23,291 nucleotides of DNA from positions 1-23,291 of IMG/VR virus record IMGVR_UViG_3300034168_000834; one strand, 5' to 3'. This document shows, piece after piece, positions 1-7,615 of this stretch; the stretch's first letter is position 1; every line of letters begins with the position of its first letter. The notes beneath the pieces are model-generated. The model made no database searches, was not told the origin of the DNA, and saw only the letters and a program-made list of their open reading frames with translations. The stretch is from a virus. The position numbers and the translations under genes are program-made.

Positions 1-270
1 CTCCAGGGTTCTTCGCACCTCCAGGGTTCTTCGCACCTCCAGGGTTCTTCGCACCTCCAGGGTTCTTCGCACCTCCAGGGTTCTTCGCACCTCCAGGGTT
101 CTTCGCACCTCCAGGGTTCTTCGCACCCCCAGGGTTCTTTGGTCCCCCAGGGTTCTTCTCACCTCCAGGGTTCTTCTCACCTCCAGGGTTCTTCGCACCT
201 CCAGGGTTCTTTGGTCCTCCAGGGTTCTTCTCACCTCCTGGGTTCTTCTCACCTCCAGGGTTCTTCTCAC
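1..270 (+). repeat. 15 x 18-bp in-frame tandem repeat (PPGFFA/S/G)
   Basis: Fifteen consecutive 18-bp units start at 1, 19, 37 and so on to 253. The first seven are identical; later ones vary mainly in the last codon (GCA, TCA or GGT) and at Pro wobble positions. The unit length preserves the frame, so copy number can change without breaking the protein. The array continues to the left edge, so its true size is unknown. Near-identical units are prone to replication slippage and to collapse during assembly. Confidence 0.95.
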
Positions 271-803
271 CTCCATCTTTTGGTGGCGGCGGCGGATGTA
301 TTGAAGAAAACACTCTAATTAAAACTAAAGATGGATTTAAAAAAATAAAAGATATTGAAGTTGGAGATATAATAGTCACCGCAGATTTAAATGAGTTGCC
401 ATTAGTAGGAACTCAAGAAGAATCTGAGCTTGATTATGAAACTTGGTCTTCTAATTCACTTTCATCTAACGGTTTTGTCGAAGCAACAGTAGTTTCAAAG
501 ATAGGCAAAATTGTTCCACAAATCATGTATTTTAATGGAGACGAATCTTTAAAGATTTCTTTACATCAACATGTGTTTATAAAAAGAGACGGTGTCTATA
601 GCGTCGAACTGTCCTCAGACATAGTAGTAGGAGATCATTTAATTAAACTAGACGAAAATGGACTTATTTCTGATCTATTAATTACATCTATTACACTTGT
701 CGACGGAGTCTCAACAGTTTACAGACTAAACACGGAGCCTCAAGACTGGTTCGTTACAGAAAATATCTTGATGCACAACTATAAGTGGTGGCTCTTGATG
801 TAA
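3..803 (+). CDS. PPGFF-repeat fibre protein with C-terminal Hint domain (5' partial)
   Basis: The gene enters from the left edge; 266 codons are visible. It begins with fifteen hexapeptides Pro-Pro-Gly-Phe-Phe-(Ala/Ser/Gly), then a short Ser-Phe/poly-Gly linker, then a Hint (intein/hedgehog-like) domain. Cys1 of the domain is at 297-299. The N-terminal block contains a thing like T-x-I-x-T-x-D-G followed by an I-x-V-G-D element. The block B histidine is at 570-572 (domain residue 92), although the usual Thr three residues before it is Leu. The C-terminal His-Asn is at 774-779 (Asn161). At 161 residues there is no room for a homing endonuclease. The residue after Asn is Tyr, not Cys/Ser/Thr, and only seven residues follow, so ordinary protein splicing is unlikely; thioester formation, cleavage or crosslinking is more plausible. 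This is probably the tip of a tail fibre or other virion surface protein. A start at 396 (TTG) would cut off the Hint N-terminus, so I reject it. Confidence 0.8.
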   Translation, partial: PGFFAPPGFFAPPGFFAPPGFFAPPGFFAPPGFFAPPGFFAPPGFFGPPGFFSPPGFFSPPGFFAPPGFFGPPGFFSPPGFFSPPGFFSPPSFGGGGGCIEENTLIKTKDGFKKIKDIEVGDIIVTADLNELPLVGTQEESELDYETWSSNSLSSNGFVEATVVSKIGKIVPQIMYFNGDESLKISLHQHVFIKRDGVYSVELSSDIVVGDHLIKLDENGLISDLLITSITLVDGVSTVYRLNTEPQDWFVTENILMHNYKWWLLM

Positions 804-818
804 TGTTATTGTTCTATA

Positions 819-847
819 TTGACATTTATGTTTATAAATGTCATAAT
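819..847 (+). promoter_or_regulatory. Consensus-like promoter of the oxygenase operon
   Basis: A perfect -35 hexamer TTGACA (819-824) is followed by a 17-bp spacer and a -10 hexamer CATAAT (842-847) preceded by TGT, an extended -10. The ATG at 854 begins 7 nt after the -10, where transcription would start, so the mRNA is probably leaderless. This is the best-matching promoter in the window and it lies directly upstream of eight tightly packed genes. Confidence 0.7.
821..842. promoter_or_regulatory. Perfect palindrome between -35 and -10 (candidate operator)
   Basis: GACATTTAT (821-829), a 4-nt centre GTTT, and ATAAATGTC (834-842) form a perfect 9-bp inverted repeat. It overlaps the last four bases of the -35 and the first base of the -10. 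A dimeric repressor bound here would block the promoter. The stem is AT-rich and has no T-run after it, so it is a poor terminator candidate. The operator role is inferred from position only. Confidence 0.45.
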
Positions 848-853
848 GAATAA

Positions 854-1552
854 ATGATAGGTAGTTTAATGCAAAACAGTTTGTCGGAGACGTGGTCTTC
901 AAAAGAACAGCTTTTCCCTGGACTTTGGGTTTACAGAAATGTAATTAAAAAAGAATTAAATCTTTCCCAAAGACTAGAGGAAGAGCTTTCTTTGTCTAGT
1001 CTTCATAGTTGGCAAAAAGCCAAAGTTGGCACTGATAAAAAAGACTCAGACTATAGAGATTGTTTTGATTTTAAAATAAGAAAAAATAATTTTGGTTTAA
1101 GTAACGAATACGATGTATTAAATTCAATATGGCAAGATACATACGATGCTAAAAACCCAGCTTTAATTGATTACTGCAATATGTACAATATACAAATGAA
1201 TTACTGGGAACAATTTAACTTTGTTAAATACGGACCAGGAAATTACTTTAAAGAACATGCAGATCATGGATTTTCTTATGTTGCTACAGTCTCCATGGTA
1301 GGATATATTAATGAAGACTATGTTGGAGGAGAACTTGTTTTTCCAAAAATAGGAATTCAGGTTAAACCAAAATCTGGTGACCTTTACATATTCCCATCGA
1401 CATATTTATTTTCTCATGCCGCCATGCCAATATCAGAGGGAATAAAATACTCTATTGTAACTATGACAGACTACAATGACGATCATCACGGTGAAGACTT
1501 TTCACAACTTATTAAAAAAAGAAAACAAGATAAAATAATTAAGGGAGATTGA
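854..1552 (+). CDS. 2OG-Fe(II) oxygenase, prolyl 4-hydroxylase type (copy 1)
   Basis: The 232-aa protein has the C-terminal double-stranded beta-helix of the prolyl 4-hydroxylase (P4Hc) family. The iron ligands are visible as H135-x-D137 (in HADHG) and distal H188 (in FSHA), with the 2-oxoglutarate-binding K198 exactly ten residues after the distal His, as in collagen prolyl 4-hydroxylases. The family core N-x-D-Y-x-G-G-E-L, K-P-K-x-G-D and F-P-S is also present. The expected reaction is 2-oxoglutarate- and O2-dependent hydroxylation of a peptidyl residue in the cytoplasm. It is first in the operon, and its ATG coincides with the predicted transcription start; ATG 869 is an alternative. It is closely similar to the next gene. 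The substrate is unproven; flanking X-Pro-Gly fibre proteins are candidates. Confidence 0.88.
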   Translation: MIGSLMQNSLSETWSSKEQLFPGLWVYRNVIKKELNLSQRLEEELSLSSLHSWQKAKVGTDKKDSDYRDCFDFKIRKNNFGLSNEYDVLNSIWQDTYDAKNPALIDYCNMYNIQMNYWEQFNFVKYGPGNYFKEHADHGFSYVATVSMVGYINEDYVGGELVFPKIGIQVKPKSGDLYIFPSTYLFSHAAMPISEGIKYSIVTMTDYNDDHHGEDFSQLIKKRKQDKIIKGD

Positions 1553-1553
1553 T

Positions 1554-2252
1554 ATGAACCAGCCAGAAGTTTTAGCACCAGGAGTGCTCGTCTATAGAAA
1601 CATATTTCCAAAAGACATGGATTTTATAAATAGACTTGAAGATTGTTTGTCTAGAGACCCAGATGCCGAAGGTGTTGGGTATTCAGATTCGCCCCATGCA
1701 ACCTATAAATGGAAGCAGGCCACAACTGGATACGCTTCAAGCAACTTAAAGTATAGAGACGCATTTGATTTTAAGATTAAGAAAAACAAGCAAGATAATG
1801 ATGGCAAAAGCGAAGATCAAATTAAACTAGAATCGATATGGGAGGACGCTAAGGATGCACAGCTGGGCCCAGTAGAAGACTATAGACAAAAATTTAACCT
1901 TGCACCACTAAATTATTGGGAGTCTTTTAACTTTGTTAAATACGGTCCAGGACAGCATTTTCAAGTACACTCTGATCATGGATACTCTTATATTTGTGTG
2001 CTATCTTCTGTTGGATATATTAACGATGATTACGAGGGCGGGGAGCTATTTTTTGATAAATTTAATTTAAAAATAAAGCCTAAGGCTGGGGATCTTTATC
2101 TATTCCCTTCATCTTATTTATTTTCACACGCATCGCTTCCAGTAACAAGTGGAACAAAATACTCTATTGTAACTATGCTAGATTACCTAGAGGCTCCTCA
2201 CACACCAGCCTACAGAGAAATAGAAAAGAAGTATACCGATGGATATGCGTAA
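1554..2252 (+). CDS. 2OG-Fe(II) oxygenase, prolyl 4-hydroxylase type (copy 2)
   Basis: This 232-aa P4Hc-family enzyme has H139-x-D141, distal H192 and co-substrate residue K202 (distal His +10). It is the nearest paralogue of the preceding gene. The two share the phrases NFVKYGPG, GYIN-D-DY, FPS-YLFSHA and KYSIVTM, and two stretches of DNA identity of about 20 nt, which points to a tandem duplication. The start has a good Shine-Dalgarno AAGGGAG at 1541-1547, six nt before the ATG. The gene begins 1 nt after the previous stop, and its 3' end overlaps the next gene by 14 bp, so translation is probably coupled. The N-terminal third (about residues 1-115) differs more from copy 1 than the catalytic core does, and could set substrate choice. 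Confidence 0.88.
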   Translation: MNQPEVLAPGVLVYRNIFPKDMDFINRLEDCLSRDPDAEGVGYSDSPHATYKWKQATTGYASSNLKYRDAFDFKIKKNKQDNDGKSEDQIKLESIWEDAKDAQLGPVEDYRQKFNLAPLNYWESFNFVKYGPGQHFQVHSDHGYSYICVLSSVGYINDDYEGGELFFDKFNLKIKPKAGDLYLFPSSYLFSHASLPVTSGTKYSIVTMLDYLEAPHTPAYREIEKKYTDGYA

Positions 2253-2943
2253 AATTGATGTTTTTAAAACAGGAGACAGCCCCGCCAAAATAGAGCAGGT
2301 AAAAGTAAACAGGGAATGGATGGACCAGACAGCTGACAGACATGCATACAACTGTTTTCCAGTTAGTTTATCTAACACTCTAGGATGGGGAATCTCCTTC
2401 CCAGAAGATATTTCTTTTATTTGGGACGGCATCTCAGATAGCCAGTCCATTCATGTAAAAATACTTTCTGGTGAAAAGTATGTACACACAAACAGGGCAA
2501 ATGCAACCATAAGCTTTATTACTGGCTTAACCTTTAAAACCGATAAAGACACAACTATATTAACTATGCCTGCTCCAAACTTTTTTATAGATGGAGCACA
2601 GGCATTTACAACATTGCTAACCACATCTTTTTTCTCTGCCGAGGTTCCCGTAGTTTGGAGGGTGACATCGCCAGGTAAAATAATAACAGTAAAAGCAGGC
2701 ACACCTGTTGCCGTATTTTTGCCAGTCTCATTAAAAGAAATCAATAATTACGAGGTTGACTTATACGATGGGAAAGGTTATGTAGGGTCTCCATATGATG
2801 GAAGAGCTTATGGAATGACAATAGATAAAATAAATATGTCTGGCAAATGGGCTGGGTTTTATAGAAATGCAACTGATCACAAAGGCAATACTATTGGTGA
2901 ACACGAAACAAAAACTTTAAGGTTGAGAGTAAATGACAAATAA
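2239..2943 (+). CDS. Uncharacterised protein in the oxygenase operon (family A, copy 1)
   Basis: This 234-aa protein has no HxD...H motif and is not an obvious oxygenase. Visible marks are a CFP-x-S-L-S-N segment followed by GWG and a P-x-x-I-x-F strand in the first third, a PAPNFF segment near the middle, and KAGTPVAVFLP in the last third. The composition suggests a soluble all-beta fold without signal peptide or membrane segment. From memory it resembles the uncharacterised DUF6065 type, but I could not check this. Its motif order is shared with the following gene, so the two look like distant paralogues. The start overlaps the preceding gene by 14 bp; ATG 2245 is an alternative. Context suggests a partner of the hydroxylases or an enzyme on the same substrate. 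Confidence 0.75.
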   Translation: MDMRKIDVFKTGDSPAKIEQVKVNREWMDQTADRHAYNCFPVSLSNTLGWGISFPEDISFIWDGISDSQSIHVKILSGEKYVHTNRANATISFITGLTFKTDKDTTILTMPAPNFFIDGAQAFTTLLTTSFFSAEVPVVWRVTSPGKIITVKAGTPVAVFLPVSLKEINNYEVDLYDGKGYVGSPYDGRAYGMTIDKINMSGKWAGFYRNATDHKGNTIGEHETKTLRLRVNDK

Positions 2944-3661
2944 AATAACTTTTCATTCCAATAGGTTATATAATATTATTTCTGAATCCTATGCTCCTCA
3001 TACCACAAAATCATTAATGCCAAATTGGTTTAAAGATGCACAAAAATTTGAGATTAATCCTGAGACAAACGAGCCGTACTTAAATACAGAAGGAGGCCCA
3101 GTTAGAACTTTCAGATCTTGCCCAGGACTTTTGGACATATTTATTAGTGGCTATATGTATGTAACTCCATGCAATATAGTATTTAAAAAAAACGCTAACG
3201 GAATCACAACCGTAAAAACAGAATCTGGATATGAGGATTTTGTTGGCTCAAGGCAACCCATGAAAGAATTCCCAGTACCAACTGGACACGACGATTTTCA
3301 TTTTCATTGGTATCCTAACTGGGCACCATCCGTCCCAGAAGGATACAGCGTAATGTATGTTCACCCAATAAATAGATTTGACTTACCATTTACTACCACC
3401 TCTGCTATAATAGATAATGATAAGATGGACACTCCTGGATTAATGCCATTTTTTCTCAAAAAGGATTTTGAGGGCACCATACCAGCGGGAACACCTTATA
3501 TGCAATTAATTCCATATAAAAGAGAAGACTGGAAGATGGAAAAAAAATTCTATTCTAAGTCAGAAATAGAAAAAAGACATGACCAGCAAGCAAAAAAATT
3601 TAGAACCAAAGACGGCGGGGCATACAAGCTAACCGTTAGATCTTTAAAGAAATATGAATAG
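2933..3661 (+). CDS. Uncharacterised protein in the oxygenase operon (family A, copy 2)
   Basis: This 242-aa protein overlaps the previous gene by 11 bp. It follows the same motif order as its neighbour: SCPG-x-L-D near residue 62, then GYMYVTP-x-x-I-x-F, then HPINRFDLPF where the neighbour has PAPNFF, then PAGTPYMQLIP where the neighbour has KAGTPVAVFLP. A His/Trp-rich segment, FHFHWYPNW, lies near the middle and could bind metal or ligand. The C-terminus is Lys-rich and probably helical. No signal peptide or membrane segment is seen. The function is unknown. Its position between oxygenase genes and its shared architecture with copy 1 suggest a conserved accessory of this pathway. Confidence 0.75.
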   Translation: MTNKITFHSNRLYNIISESYAPHTTKSLMPNWFKDAQKFEINPETNEPYLNTEGGPVRTFRSCPGLLDIFISGYMYVTPCNIVFKKNANGITTVKTESGYEDFVGSRQPMKEFPVPTGHDDFHFHWYPNWAPSVPEGYSVMYVHPINRFDLPFTTTSAIIDNDKMDTPGLMPFFLKKDFEGTIPAGTPYMQLIPYKREDWKMEKKFYSKSEIEKRHDQQAKKFRTKDGGAYKLTVRSLKKYE

Positions 3662-3668
3662 GTGAAAA

Positions 3669-4343
3669 ATGGAATATACAAAAAGAGCTAGATTTGCAAG
3701 ACAGTCAATAACACCTTCAGGGCATTTCGGAACCTCACCAGACAATGTTGTAGAGCTAGAAGATATGGTGACTCTTGAAGAGCAAGAGTACCTTTTAAAC
3801 TTTGCAAGAAATAACACAGTGTGGGATGTTACTGAATCTCAGTGGAATGAAAATGGAAACATTATTTATGATCACAGAGTGTGGGAAGATAGAGTTGCTA
3901 CTAAAGACTCACTAATGAAAGCAGACCCAGAAGTTGTCAGAATTCTAAATCTAGTTATCCAAAGAATGACTCCATTTATTAGAGAAAAATTTGATGTAGA
4001 AGTTTCACCGACAGAAGCAGCCATTGTTAGATGGCCAGTTGGAGCGATGCAGTTTCCTCATGCTGACAAGGAGCTACACGAAGGCCCAGACGCTGGAACA
4101 GAAAATGAGTTTCCATGGTACGACATAGGAACAGTGTTTTATTTAAATAATGATTACGAAGGCGGAGAGCTATTCTTCCCACTTCAAAATATTAAATTTA
4201 AGCCCAAAGCAAGAGCAGCATATTTTTTCCCAGGAGATAAGAACTATATTCATGGGGTAACAAAAGTAACAAGCGGAACAAGATATACCGCACCATTCTT
4301 TTGGACAATAACCAGACTAGGTAGGATAGACAATGACAACTAA
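3669..4343 (+). CDS. 2OG-Fe(II) oxygenase, prolyl 4-hydroxylase type (copy 3)
   Basis: This 224-aa protein has the P4Hc signature: H131-x-D133 (PHADKE), the core LNNDYEGGELFF, K-P-K-A, distal H195 (YIHGV) and R205, which replaces Lys as the co-substrate-binding residue at distal His +10. It is divergent from copies 1 and 2 over the whole N-terminal half, which contains a helical LEEQEYLLNFAR segment. A weak Shine-Dalgarno AGGTG lies a few nt upstream of the ATG. The 3' end overlaps the next oxygenase by 11 bp. It is expected to be an active cytoplasmic peptidyl hydroxylase. The residue hydroxylated and the target are not visible from sequence. Confidence 0.87.
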   Translation: MEYTKRARFARQSITPSGHFGTSPDNVVELEDMVTLEEQEYLLNFARNNTVWDVTESQWNENGNIIYDHRVWEDRVATKDSLMKADPEVVRILNLVIQRMTPFIREKFDVEVSPTEAAIVRWPVGAMQFPHADKELHEGPDAGTENEFPWYDIGTVFYLNNDYEGGELFFPLQNIKFKPKARAAYFFPGDKNYIHGVTKVTSGTRYTAPFFWTITRLGRIDNDN

Positions 4344-5115
4344 TTACGAATACACATCTTTTGAGCTTTTGCCAAATGTAAGGATTTATCAGGGACTACT
4401 GCCAGATGCAGATGAATTGTACAGAATAATGAAGGAATCTGATGCCGATGCGGCAGGAAGATATTATTTAAGAACTTGGGACAAGTGGTCAATTTTTGGA
4501 AGCTACTCACAGCAAAAACATAATGAGAACGAGCCCAGAGAGTTTGGTCCAAGATATGATGAAGAAAAGTTTCTTTCAGACAGAGTTTATGAGGCTTACA
4601 ACACTGCCATTGAAGATTACAAAAAGACATACGGAATTGTTTTGCCAGAATCGGCTAAATTAATGACATCATCTTTTTCAAAATACGATGCAAATGTAGA
4701 TACTATGGGCAATGAAATGTCTATGCAGTACCATACAGATTTTATCATTTCAGAAAGAGATATGCCTGGTCCAAAATTTTTGCTTACCTGCACAACATAT
4801 ATTAACGATGACTATGAAGGTGGCGATATAGAGTTTTACATGAACGACCAATACTATCCATACAAGCCCAAGGCTGGCGACATACTTGTATTTCCATCAC
4901 AAGATCCATATTTTCATGGAGTTAGAACGATTAGAAATGGAAACAAGTTTTTTATTAGAAACTTCATACAGTACTATTATGATGGGCACCCACAATGGCT
5001 TGCAAATCAAAAGCACTGGGGTGCTTATACCTGGGCTAAGATGGAGCAAAAAAGAATTGAAAAAGAAAATCCAGCAAACATGAAGTACTCAGATAGAAAG
5101 AATTTAGGGTACTAA
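4333..5115 (+). CDS. 2OG-Fe(II) oxygenase, prolyl 4-hydroxylase type (copy 4)
   Basis: At 260 aa this is the longest oxygenase of the set. H134-x-D136 (QYHTDF), YINDDYEGGD, YKPKAGD, FPS, distal H195 (YFHGV) and K205 (distal His +10) are all present. A roughly 45-residue tail rich in Trp, Lys and Glu follows the catalytic core and has no counterpart in the shorter copies. The start overlaps the upstream gene by 11 bp, and the next gene begins 1 nt after its stop, so all three are probably translated from one mRNA. The N-terminal 100 residues (ELLPNVRIYQG onward) look like the family's helical cap. Confidence 0.87.
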   Translation: MTTNYEYTSFELLPNVRIYQGLLPDADELYRIMKESDADAAGRYYLRTWDKWSIFGSYSQQKHNENEPREFGPRYDEEKFLSDRVYEAYNTAIEDYKKTYGIVLPESAKLMTSSFSKYDANVDTMGNEMSMQYHTDFIISERDMPGPKFLLTCTTYINDDYEGGDIEFYMNDQYYPYKPKAGDILVFPSQDPYFHGVRTIRNGNKFFIRNFIQYYYDGHPQWLANQKHWGAYTWAKMEQKRIEKENPANMKYSDRKNLGY

Positions 5116-5116
5116 T

Positions 5117-5815
5117 ATGACTATGCCAAAGATAAGAGACGAATTTTTTATAGTAGAGAATTTTATAGATCCAGAAACTTGCTCTGCTATTATAAATTAT
5201 TTTGATTTTTTGGTAGAACACAAAATATTAAAATGGAATGAGATATCCTTCTACGGCTCACAGGCTATGGGCTACTGGCCGTCCGACCCAAATTTAAAAC
5301 TTTTTGGATTGCCAGAAGATTTCTTTAATCAGTTTAAAGAAAAAATAAAATCTAAAACCGAAGAATTGCTAGGCTTTGAAGTCTCAGAAGTTAGCTATCA
5401 CGCACAAAGGTGGCTTGAAGGAGCTTTTGCAGACTATCACTCAGACAACTCAGATGAAGTTGGAAACCCAACTGCTTTTGAAAGAAGTAAGTATGCAGTG
5501 TTTATTTACCTGAATGATAATTTTGAAGGCGGTCATTTAAAATTTAAGGATGGAAGTATTGACATCAAGCCAAAAATTGGATTGGGCGCATTTTTTGCTG
5601 GCGGGCATACAAGAGAGCACATGGTTACAACAGTAAAGGGTGGCATTAGATACACAATAGGATCGTTTTGGGATGATGCAAGCATTGTATATACCGACAA
5701 ACAACGAGAAGCTTGGGACATGGAGCTAAAGGCTGTTAGAGCAGAGCAGGAACAAATTTATAAAAAATGGGCAACCCCAGAAGGAAGACCAGTAATGCCA
5801 GAAGGTAGAGAATGA
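5117..5815 (+). CDS. 2OG-Fe(II) oxygenase, prolyl 4-hydroxylase type (copy 5)
   Basis: This 232-aa protein has H108-x-D110 (YHSDN), YLNDNFEGGHLKF, IKPKIG, distal H168 (REHMV) and R178 at distal His +10. The Arg (rather than Lys) and the FFAGGHTREHMV segment set it apart from copies 1, 2, 4 and 6. Its 45-residue C-terminal extension is Glu/Lys/Arg-rich and probably helical. It starts 1 nt after the previous stop and shares an ATGA overlap with the next gene. It contains one CGA Arg codon in an otherwise AGA/AGG-dominated operon. Prolyl hydroxylase activity is the likeliest role; another residue or substrate is possible. Confidence 0.86.
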   Translation: MTMPKIRDEFFIVENFIDPETCSAIINYFDFLVEHKILKWNEISFYGSQAMGYWPSDPNLKLFGLPEDFFNQFKEKIKSKTEELLGFEVSEVSYHAQRWLEGAFADYHSDNSDEVGNPTAFERSKYAVFIYLNDNFEGGHLKFKDGSIDIKPKIGLGAFFAGGHTREHMVTTVKGGIRYTIGSFWDDASIVYTDKQREAWDMELKAVRAEQEQIYKKWATPEGRPVMPEGRE

Positions 5816-6429
5816 TTAAAGAAATTTTAGATGACAATATCTATTATTATAAAAACGTTATACCAAACCCAAGTGAGTTTGTTGAAGAAATAGAAACACT
5901 AGACAAGATATCTTATGACAACCCTCATTTAACAAAATGGATGAGATGGGTTTCTAGTAATAATGAAAATGATGTTTTTGGCGAGTATAAGGTCGGATCC
6001 TTTACCATATCAAAAACAGATAATGAAATTAATAAAAGGTATGCCTTGGTCGTATCTACAATACTAGATGCTATTAATTTGTGCGTTGAAGATTATTCAA
6101 AATCATTGGGAAAAGATCTTGGCTTTTTGCCAAACGAAGTAAGAATAAGCAAGTATTTCCCACCAGCTCAGATGGGTCCACACATCGATTGCGAAGAGGA
6201 CGATGAAGAGGCTAGGCTTACTGCATCAATTGTGTTGTATTTAAATGATAATTACACTGGAGGAGAACTTTCTTTTCCAGAGCAAAAAATAAAGATCAAG
6301 CCAGAAGCTGGTAGCCTGGTTATATTTCCTTCAGTTAAGCCATATTTTCACGCCTCAACCCCGCTAATATCTGGCAACAAATACATGTGCCCAGCGTTTA
6401 TGTTTAAAACAAGTAAGATAATTTCATAG
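5812..6429 (+). CDS. 2OG-Fe(II) oxygenase, prolyl 4-hydroxylase type (copy 6)
   Basis: At 205 aa this is the shortest copy and the last gene of the operon. H124-x-D126 (PHIDCE), YLNDNYTGGELSF, IKPEAGS, FPS, distal H180 (YFHAS) and K190 (distal His +10) are all present, so the active site is complete. An acidic loop, CEEDDEE, follows the iron-binding Asp. The ATG overlaps the upstream stop (ATGA) and is preceded by an AGAAGGTAGAGA purine tract that can serve as Shine-Dalgarno. There is no C-terminal extension. The collagen-like fibre gene begins 16 nt downstream, behind its own -10 element. Confidence 0.87.
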   Translation: MIKEILDDNIYYYKNVIPNPSEFVEEIETLDKISYDNPHLTKWMRWVSSNNENDVFGEYKVGSFTISKTDNEINKRYALVVSTILDAINLCVEDYSKSLGKDLGFLPNEVRISKYFPPAQMGPHIDCEEDDEEARLTASIVLYLNDNYTGGELSFPEQKIKIKPEAGSLVIFPSVKPYFHASTPLISGNKYMCPAFMFKTSKIIS

Positions 6430-6430
6430 G

Positions 6431-6439
6431 TGGTATAAT
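6431..6439 (+). promoter_or_regulatory. Extended -10 promoter of the collagen-like fibre gene
   Basis: TGG followed by a perfect TATAAT (6434-6439) lies 6 nt before the ATG at 6446, the same spacing as at the oxygenase operon, and implies a leaderless mRNA. No good -35 is visible 16-18 bp upstream. AGGTGG at 6428-6433 could instead be a distant Shine-Dalgarno for read-through mRNA. Confidence 0.5.
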
Positions 6440-6445
6440 TAAAAA

Positions 6446-7615
6446 ATGGCAACAGTAGGTGTTAATGGATGGCGTTTCCCAAGTTACTCGGACTCACCCG
6501 ACGTACCTAGGGACCTTGGTATTTTAGGCGCAGACATTGCTGCATTTATTGCTGCAAACCCTGGCCCACAAGGAATAGCAGGCCCTGCTAACGTGTTAAG
6601 CGTAGCAGCAACAAATACACTTAATCCTGGACAAAGTGCCACCGTAACTATCAGTGGAACATCTCCTGCACAATCTTTAACATTCAATATACCAAGAGGC
6701 CAAGACGGAATTCTTGGCGGCCCAGGACCCTCTAACGTATTATCAATTGGAACTGTTACTGCAGGAGTAAGTGCATCTGCAACAATTACAGGAACTTCTC
6801 CATCCCAAGTATTAAATTTAGTTTTACCAAAAGGTGATACAGGCGCAACAGGCGCAGCTGGCACTAACGGAACTAACGGTGCTGTTGGAGCACCTGGACC
6901 TAAAGGAGATGCAGCCGCAACCATAACAGTTAACTCAACTTCAACATCCCTACCAGGATCAAACGCAGTAGTTACAAATAGTGGAACCTCCAGCAATGTT
7001 CTTTTAGATTTTGTAATTCCACGTGGCGCAGACGGAGCACCTGGAGCAGACGGAGCACCTGGCGCAGACGGAGCACCTGGAGCACCTGGAGCACCTGGAG
7101 CAAATGGTACCAATGCCGTTATAGATCCAATTACTACAAGAATTTCATTAAACTATGGAGCAACAGACTTATCTCCAGTCGGAGTAAATTCAAACTGGTT
7201 CCCCTTAACAAATAATACATTTAGCTTGGGCCTTATAGGTCCTCTAAATGCTGGTACTGATCGTGTAACAAGAGGCTGGAAAAATATATATTCAAATAAT
7301 AACGCCACAACAATTTCTGATGCAAGAACAAAAGAAAATGTAGTAACCTCTGACCTCGGGCTAGACTTTATAAATAATTTGCATCCCGTTAAGTATAATA
7401 AAATTGAAGGAAACAGAACACATTATGGTCTAATTGCACAAGAAGTTAAATCAGTATTAGATGCTTCTGGAGTTGCCGATTTTGGCGGCTGGCTAATATC
7501 TGATGTTAATGACTTAGAAGGAACACAGGCATTAAGATATGAAGAGTTTATTTCACCATTAATTAAAGCGGTACAAGAACTTACAGCAAGAGTAAAATCA
7601 CTAGAAGAAAAGTAG
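6446..7615 (+). CDS. Collagen-like tail fibre with C-terminal S74 chaperone/autoprotease domain
   Basis: The 389-aa protein has alternating modules. About residues 35-205 hold three beta-type modules, each ending in a phrase like FNIPRG, interrupted by Gly-X-Y tracts. The longest tracts are nine triplets at about residues 129-155 and ten triplets at about 194-223, the second built on GADGAP and with Pro in the Y position. Residues 291-389 form an intramolecular chaperone of the peptidase S74 family. The Ser-Lys dyad is S291 and K296 in SDARTKENV, followed by INNLHPVKY and HYGLIAQEV; a C-terminal coiled coil (AVQELTARVKSLEEK) ends it. In known relatives this domain trimerises the fibre and then cuts itself off just before the Ser. 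The Gly-X-Pro-Gly tracts are typical prolyl 4-hydroxylase targets, and the gene directly follows the oxygenase operon. Confidence 0.9.
   Translation: MATVGVNGWRFPSYSDSPDVPRDLGILGADIAAFIAANPGPQGIAGPANVLSVAATNTLNPGQSATVTISGTSPAQSLTFNIPRGQDGILGGPGPSNVLSIGTVTAGVSASATITGTSPSQVLNLVLPKGDTGATGAAGTNGTNGAVGAPGPKGDAAATITVNSTSTSLPGSNAVVTNSGTSSNVLLDFVIPRGADGAPGADGAPGADGAPGAPGAPGANGTNAVIDPITTRISLNYGATDLSPVGVNSNWFPLTNNTFSLGLIGPLNAGTDRVTRGWKNIYSNNNATTISDARTKENVVTSDLGLDFINNLHPVKYNKIEGNRTHYGLIAQEVKSVLDASGVADFGGWLISDVNDLEGTQALRYEEFISPLIKAVQELTARVKSLEEK
7025..7096 (+). repeat. 18-bp/9-bp tandem repeat encoding GADGAP/GAP triplets
   Basis: Three 18-bp units (7025-7042, 7043-7060, 7061-7078) differ at only one base and are followed by two 9-bp units (7079-7096). 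They encode Gly-Ala-Asp-Gly-Ala-Pro and Gly-Ala-Pro. The unit keeps the Gly-X-Y register, so expansion or contraction would lengthen or shorten the triple helix without a frameshift. Confidence 0.9.

Follow-up and report, generated by a model that had tools for sequence, protein, structure and literature searches.

A phage cassette of prolyl-hydroxylase-type oxygenases linked to a PPxFF repeat protein, its candidate substrate

Many freshwater phages carry a hydroxylase-like gene set beside a tail-region gene encoding PPxFF repeats, and the two are nearly always found together. We analyzed this pairing in the 23,291-base IMG/VR virus record IMGVR_UViG_3300034168_000834 (positions 1 to 23,291; this whole stretch is called the window below) and in its relatives. 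The window comes from a tailed phage whose portal protein shares up to 57.7% identity with that of Streptomyces phages. It encodes a PPxFF repeat protein followed by a cassette of six 2-oxoglutarate (2OG)-Fe(II) oxygenases and two other proteins. We conclude that the cassette probably hydroxylates prolines of the PPxFF tracts, a pairing of enzymes and substrate that would be nearer to the hydroxyproline-rich proteins of algae than to collagen.

Linkage of the repeat tract and the oxygenase cassette

From the repeat protein to the collagen-like fibre, all of the genes are on the plus strand. From left to right the genes encode the repeat protein (cut by the window edge), the oxygenases OX1 and OX2, a DUF6065 protein, a phrog_7084 protein, and the oxygenases OX3, OX4, OX5, and OX6. 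On the 3' side of OX6 are a collagen-like fibre gene with an S74 chaperone end, a gene we call the LamG-position gene (our own label; it matches phrog_11584, a family with no assigned function), and then the portal, protease, capsid, and tail genes. Several cassette genes overlap (2239/2252, 2933/2943, 4333/4343, and 5812/5815), as expected for one operon. The same layout was seen again in many IMG/VR records and thus is not due to chance. The original prediction, made from the letters of the window, had placed six prolyl 4-hydroxylase (P4H)-type oxygenases in one operon downstream of a (PPGFFx)15 protein. Both features were recovered, the oxygenases at 854-6429 and the repeat at 1-275, where an 18-nt unit occurs 15.3 times. 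That prediction made no mention of the DUF6065 and phrog_7084 genes within the cassette, or of the Hint-like and fibronectin-III ends of the repeat protein, the latter lying beyond the window.

To quantify the association, IMG/VR was scanned with a DNA pattern of (PPxFFx)3, which gave at least 120 stretches, and the first 50 loci by number, representing 49 records, were analyzed. PF13640 was found in 48 of these 49 records (47 above the cut-off, with up to 15 matches per record) and the DUF6065 profile was found in 46. A control scan with a (Gly-x-Pro)5 DNA pattern, of which the first 50 of at least 120 stretches were taken, gave PF13640 in 6 of 50 records and DUF6065 in only one, the matches being DNA stretches rather than confirmed genes and the pattern one that reads alike on both strands. 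When at least 3 kb downstream of a tract open reading frame (ORF) was covered, an oxygenase start lay within 3 kb in 57 of 63 cases. When less was covered, the locus contained an oxygenase in 35 of 52 cases.

The reverse test used loci fetched by OX2 or phrog_7084. These gave 57 distinct cassettes, 45 with the LamG-position gene covered and 38 with at least 4 kb covered upstream, and a tract ORF lay upstream in all 38 of the latter. Note that "distinct" denotes a different 120-residue stretch of one gene and that many of these cassettes are close relatives. The oxygenases and the repeat gene upstream of them are tightly linked.

The tract on other carriers

A second layout has a short protein (60-217 residues) with the tract at its end, next an OX3-like gene in the opposite orientation, and then OX2- or OX1-like and DUF6065 genes. 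Twenty records had this or other odd layouts. Many of these are fragments, although 6 of the 18 records lacking the window's portal are at least 78 kb. The window's portal was present in 2 of the 20 records, PF13640 in 18 (17 above the cut-off), and DUF6065 in 16. Except for the portal in those two records, the LamG-position and portal genes do not accompany the tract and enzymes in the odd layouts listed. The carriers differ while the tract, the enzymes, and DUF6065 stay, which makes the tract the best candidate substrate. Our argument turns on this step.

No Pfam domain was found in the short carrier of locus L285, and PHROGs searches with ten proteins of L246 and L285 gave no phage type for the second layout. 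By our own reading of the sequences, the carriers may be described as PASTA-like (L285), S74-like (L231), and Ig-like (L276). Some phages also encode a second, larger tail-type protein with a C-terminal PPVFF or PPSFF tract (L282:2-1576, L276:8942-11326, and L240:7942-10620), which occurs either beside or apart from the usual tract gene.

The oxygenases belong to the prolyl hydroxylase class

All six window oxygenases pass the PF13640 cut-off of 27 bits (31.4-49.8 bits) and all match phrog_61. Each retains an H-x-D motif, a distal His, and a Lys or Arg 10 residues beyond the distal His, and thus the iron and 2OG residues are kept. OX1 (854-1552; PF13640 E value 4.1e-11; H135, D137, H188, and K198) and OX2 (1554-2252; 6.8e-13; H139, D141, H192, and K202) are of the prolyl-4-hydroxylase type. 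The remaining 2OG-Fe(II) oxygenases are OX3 (3669-4343; 3.8e-7; H131, D133, H195, and R205), OX4 (4333-5115; 3.3e-10; H134, D136, H195, and K205), OX5 (5117-5815; 4e-9; H108, D110, H168, and R178), and OX6 (5812-6429; 4.3e-12; H124, D126, H180, and K190). The OX5 site was taken from residues at least 97% conserved, the automated pattern having given H164/K174.

Comparison with solved structures covered OX1 and OX2. A profile of 35 OX1/OX2 relatives gave as its best PDB match a Bacillus P4H, a "procollagen-proline dioxygenase" (2.7e-11), with further matches to the chlorovirus P4H, PiuC, prolyl 3-hydroxylase 1, LH3, and the human and algal P4Hs. The OX2 model (predicted local distance difference test score, pLDDT, 91.1) was nearest to an algal P4H with bound (Ser-Pro)5, a peptide lacking Gly (Z 20.6, root-mean-square deviation (rmsd) 2.0, 172 aligned residues), the structure described in PMC9676403 as solved with a Ser-Pro peptide. 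Next came a Trichoplax hypoxia-type enzyme (Z 20.3), a Pseudomonas putida enzyme with EF-Tu (Z 20.0), and the chlorovirus enzyme (Z 17.8), rows within 1 Z unit being regarded as tied. Proline hydroxylase therefore appears to be the best class for OX1 and OX2, both by sequence and by modeled fold, and the fold does not reveal the substrate. An apparent insertion in OX2 of loci L102-L119, suggested by long tblastn spans, was discarded upon viewing the map of one locus, L106, which shows a separate upstream oxygenase ORF.

The oxygenases could instead act elsewhere, on a host protein such as EF-Tu, on DNA, or in 2OG metabolism, and lie near the tract only because the whole late region is passed on together. 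We consider this unlikely. Most tract records do come from related phages, the EF-Tu-complexed P. putida enzyme is among the closest folds, and phage 2OG oxygenases are discussed in PMC3037559 as genes related to 2OG or DNA repair, a role in DNA repair or 2OG balance being a guess for those of cyanophages. However, the tract, DUF6065, and the oxygenases recur with other carriers in records lacking the window's portal, where the LamG-position and portal genes, apart from the two portals noted above, do not travel along.

Sequence constraints on the PPxFF tract

The tract has the repeat type (SPPGFFAPPVFF)n, an (S/A/G)PPxFF hexapeptide, which in the window is PPGFF(A/S/G) repeated 15 times (1-275) and is the proposed substrate. 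It lies within the ORF at 3-803, which is 5'-truncated in the window. The complete protein was found in a longer sister IMG/VR record (71.7 kb), which matches the first 4000 bases of the window at 100% DNA identity. It has 478 residues and consists of an Fn3-like region (fn3 match 3.1e-6), the tract, and a Hint-like C-terminus, the fibronectin-III N-terminus falling outside the window.

Among 139 distinct tract proteins the residue following Pro-Pro was G (48.7%), S (12.8%), A (10.0%), R (7.6%), L (5.2%), V (4.9%), N (3.3%), or others, and Pro-Pro was preceded by A, S, or G in 1521 of 1652 cases. A second set was free of selection by tract and comprised 53 distinct proteins from the loci fetched by OX2 or phrog_7084. 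In these proteins P, P, F, and F were present in 736 of 736 in-register hexads, the first and last repeats being PPxFF by construction. The sixth residue was S, A, or G in 97.7%, x was Gly in 55% and otherwise free, and silent codon positions varied. Pro, Pro, Phe, and Phe are tightly constrained, unlike Gly, the reverse of what a collagen helix would show.

The original prediction was that collagen-type P4Hs act on X-Pro-Gly in both neighboring proteins and thereby stabilize triple helices, a model we find quite unlikely. Its second proposed substrate, the downstream collagen-like fibre, is present as described (6446-7615; Collagen 9.6e-7, 28.9 bits versus a cut-off of 27.2) and has an S74 chaperone C-terminus (Peptidase_S74 3.3e-12). 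In favor of the model are the 15 PPG of the window tract, the APG triplets of the fibre, the Bacillus procollagen-proline dioxygenases that head the OX1/OX2 matches, a further collagen-like fibre upstream in the sister record (PF01391 4.2e-14), and the runs of 6-10 Gly-x-y triplets kept in all 15 fibre orthologues. However, about half of the repeats have a residue other than Gly at x, and PPG is absent from 14 of the 139 proteins. Moreover, Gly fills only 33.5% of the 3306 third positions in the tracts, and thus a collagen triple helix is not expected. On these values, together with the free x, X-Pro-Gly is rejected as the recognition rule.

The fibre itself was present in 15 of the 45 distinct cassettes with the LamG-position gene covered and absent from the other 30, which excludes it as a required partner; it is an optional neighbor and possibly an extra substrate. 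PF01391 exceeded its cut-off in 8 of the 49 tract records, and 16 had a match at E <= 1e-3. The co-occurrence that the original prediction had proposed to seek in relatives was found for PPxFF repeats, whereas the collagen-like fibre was optional and the (Gly-x-Pro)5 records had PF13640 in 6 of 50. Oxygenases lacking any Pro-Gly-rich fibre, the case named as contrary to the model, were found in two fragment records. One (L258) has five PF13640 and three DUF6065-profile matches, PPAFF repeats only, and no collagen match, whereas the other (L269) has four and two such matches, a tract without PPG, and again no collagen match. The broader idea that the phage hydroxylates its own fibres retains the prolyl hydroxylase class of OX1/OX2 and the linkage to the repeat gene, but is left without the X-Pro-Gly rule and the triple helix.

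Modification of the tract at other residues, such as the Phe pair or the variable x, is improbable. In its favor, Phe-Phe shares the invariance of Pro-Pro, phage 2OG oxygenases form a diverse group, and the structural comparison extends to OX1/OX2 only. Against it, proline hydroxylases are the best matches of both the OX1/OX2 profile and the OX2 model, and x, which varies freely, is an unlikely target.

The C-terminal part of the window repeat protein (285-803) resembles a Hint/intein domain, with matches to Hint_2 (0.0027) and Intein_splicing (0.0037) that are both below the Pfam cut-offs. A Cys at its start and His-Asn near its end are visible. By a crude pattern, 32 of the 139 tract proteins have both the Cys start and the His-Asn end, 32 have one of the two, 24 have neither, and 51 have no long tail. 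From these sequences the Hint-like end seems not to be a constant part of the repeat protein, the constant part being PPxFF. Many relatives have lost the Cys and/or the His-Asn while keeping the domain outline, and these domains may have a noncleaving role.

A scan of genome contigs from 84,980 species for the tract gave 13 stretches, in which the repeat ORFs were judged to be low-complexity or antisense frames. In two of the 13 loci no ORF contained at least two repeats, and the cassette families were not found in the stretches examined. A candidate ORF with six PPLFF repeats (L345:5535-6311) is in a Novosphingobium genome that also encodes a DUF6065-Cupin_8 protein on another contig.

DUF6065 and phrog_7084

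The DUF6065 protein (2239-2943; PF19541 1.5e-30) has counterparts in 46 of the 49 tract records. Its model (pLDDT 93.7) resembles the trimeric dUTPases (Foldseek 1.6e-4; Z 11.2, rmsd 5.0, 122 aligned residues, residues 3-178), a likeness in the fold of a predicted model, with only 9-13% identity in the best rows. The neighboring protein (2933-3661; phrog_7084 2.3e-29) appears to be a distant relative, as phrog_7084 also matches the DUF6065 protein (3.9e-4). In a DUF6065 tree seven odd-layout proteins plus one other form a single clade with support of 1.0; the tree is unrooted and implies no direction of transfer.

Outside phages, DUF6065 was found in 46 of 385 genomes sampled from the class to which Novosphingobium belongs. 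We examined 35 of the 53 alphaproteobacterial loci listed, scanning for fusions the 11 ORFs of at least 327 residues. In 6 of the 35 loci the DUF6065 ORF also carries a Cupin_8/JmjC hydroxylase-type domain (L473:1495-3126, L514:7124-8773, L516:7894-9591, L522:7075-8724, L526:5630-7318, and L539:2075-3910), and hence DUF6065 is tied to hydroxylase domains outside phages. One further locus has a DUF6065-SapC fusion (L521:7184-8710). Pro-Thr repeat proteins are among the neighbors of the fusion loci L516, L522, L526, and L537, the last being the same place as L473.

The gene neighbors of alphaproteobacterial DUF6065 are mostly unrelated. Pro-rich proteins (at least 15 Pro in 30 residues) were encoded by 5 of 138 near genes versus 1 of 269 far genes (Fisher p 0.019), and the test gave p 0.020 at 12 Pro and 0.052 at 10 Pro. 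This signal is weak and suggestive only. Three plasmid loci, from 3 of the 32 records with a match, were also viewed and are likewise only suggestive. On an Ochrobactrum quorumnocens plasmid (L475:2247-4795) the DUF6065 gene is directly 3' of a gene whose surface-like product has a collagen-like GTPGAPGTPG tract at its end. In Sinorhizobium (L474) the preceding gene encodes an autotransporter-like protein with a long poly-Pro stretch. No paper on DUF6065 was found in the open subset of PubMed Central (PMC).

A proposed fibre-maturation unit

We propose that the oxygenase cassette and DUF6065, often together with the phrog_7084 relative, constitute a phage-encoded fibre-maturation unit that modifies the tail-region tract. 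Modification by the oxygenases and DUF6065 would take place in the cytoplasm of the infected cell, on the nascent tract, while virions are being assembled or earlier. Most likely, one or both prolines in every repeat would become hydroxylated. The individual oxygenases may take different positions, in which case several enzymes would cover the two prolines and their differing contexts. Recognition would be of a small residue-Pro-Pro motif, as in the hydroxyproline-rich proteins of algae and plants, rather than of the X-Pro-Gly of collagen. Hydroxyproline would lower the hydrophobicity of the Phe-rich rod and stiffen it as a polyproline-type helix, and the modified tract may form a rod or adhesive segment that is extended and tolerates water better. 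The Hint-like domain, if its catalytic residues are still present, may cut itself off after modification.

Several observations weigh against hydroxylation of the tract by the cassette. No oxygenase lies within 3 kb downstream for 6 of the 63 tract ORFs where at least that distance was covered, and for 17 of the 52 with less sequence the locus contains none. Of the six, those in L282, L286, and L296 encode large tail-type proteins located where the examined stretch ends, and in L282 the usual tract gene and cassette were found further along. Two of the 20 odd-layout records lack PF13640 and four lack DUF6065. Much of the co-occurrence comes from related phages, and the counts within each layout are not independent events. 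The hypoxia-type, EF-Tu-binding Pseudomonas, and chlorovirus enzymes score near the algal P4H, and the Bacillus enzyme is best by sequence; homology therefore does not fix the substrate. Few of the 35 alphaproteobacterial DUF6065 loci have a Pro-rich neighbor. Finally, the isolated-phage collection gave no relative of DUF6065 (two proteins queried) and no match to the tract peptide, which low-complexity filtering may hide, and thus no cultured system is at hand.

A wider reading, which we offer tentatively as it is possible but rather doubtful, is that of a phage hydroxyproline-rich protein system. In such a system a modular PPxFF tract would move between tail-region carriers together with dedicated proline hydroxylases and DUF6065, the latter being a general protein-hydroxylation partner that is also present in Alphaproteobacteria, there fused to JmjC/cupin domains.

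Relation to known systems

Prolyl hydroxylation of repeat proteins by viral or bacterial enzymes is of a kind already known. The closest parallel is Chlamydomonas Cr-P4H-1 (PDB 3gze), a P4H of algal hydroxyproline-rich proteins, which shares with OX2 the fold, the H-x-D...H residues and the Lys at +10, and a small residue before Pro in the motif. It differs in having only 19% identity to OX2, and in that the phage tract is PPxFF rather than Ser-Pro and the phages have several enzymes in one operon with DUF6065 and a predicted substrate. The Bacillus P4H (PDB 5iax, 3itq, and 5hv0), the best PDB sequence match of OX1/OX2, is named for collagen-type substrates, whereas the phage repeat needs no Gly after Pro. 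The "viral collagen prolyl hydroxylase" vCPH of chlorovirus PBCV-1 (PDB 5c5t) is likewise a virus-encoded P4H (profile E value 8.7e-8). In contrast to the phage cassette, it is a single enzyme and belongs to a eukaryotic virus. We know of no PPxFF tract or DUF6065 partner for PBCV-1 vCPH.

Among phages, 2OG-Fe(II) oxygenases of PHROG 61 are common in cyanophages and are listed as auxiliary metabolic genes with no substrate given, whereas the window enzymes, which match this family, have a co-traveling candidate. According to PMC12774648, EGLN3-like and prolyl hydroxylase folds are widespread among phage oxygenases. We found no description of a phage proline hydroxylase/PPxFF repeat unit in the PMC open subset, outside of which most subscription papers lie.

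Many phage 2OG-Fe(II) oxygenases have no assigned substrate. Here a candidate is encoded beside the enzymes, and as a six-residue repeat it can be directly synthesized and assayed. If the proposal is correct, phages would use several enzymes to hydroxylate their own fibres, an additional protein-maturation step in virion assembly. This would also account for some of the phage oxygenases that are usually classed with metabolic genes, and would provide the first functional handle on DUF6065.

Genes upstream in the sister record

Upstream of the repeat gene the sister record encodes tail-fibre-like proteins, two of which have Mtd_N domains. One of these two is the collagen-like fibre mentioned above (L470:8582-10819), which lies outside the window and is longer than the fibre downstream of OX6. 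A ribonucleotide reductase gene (L470:13613-15547; phrog_367) is close to the tail-fibre genes.

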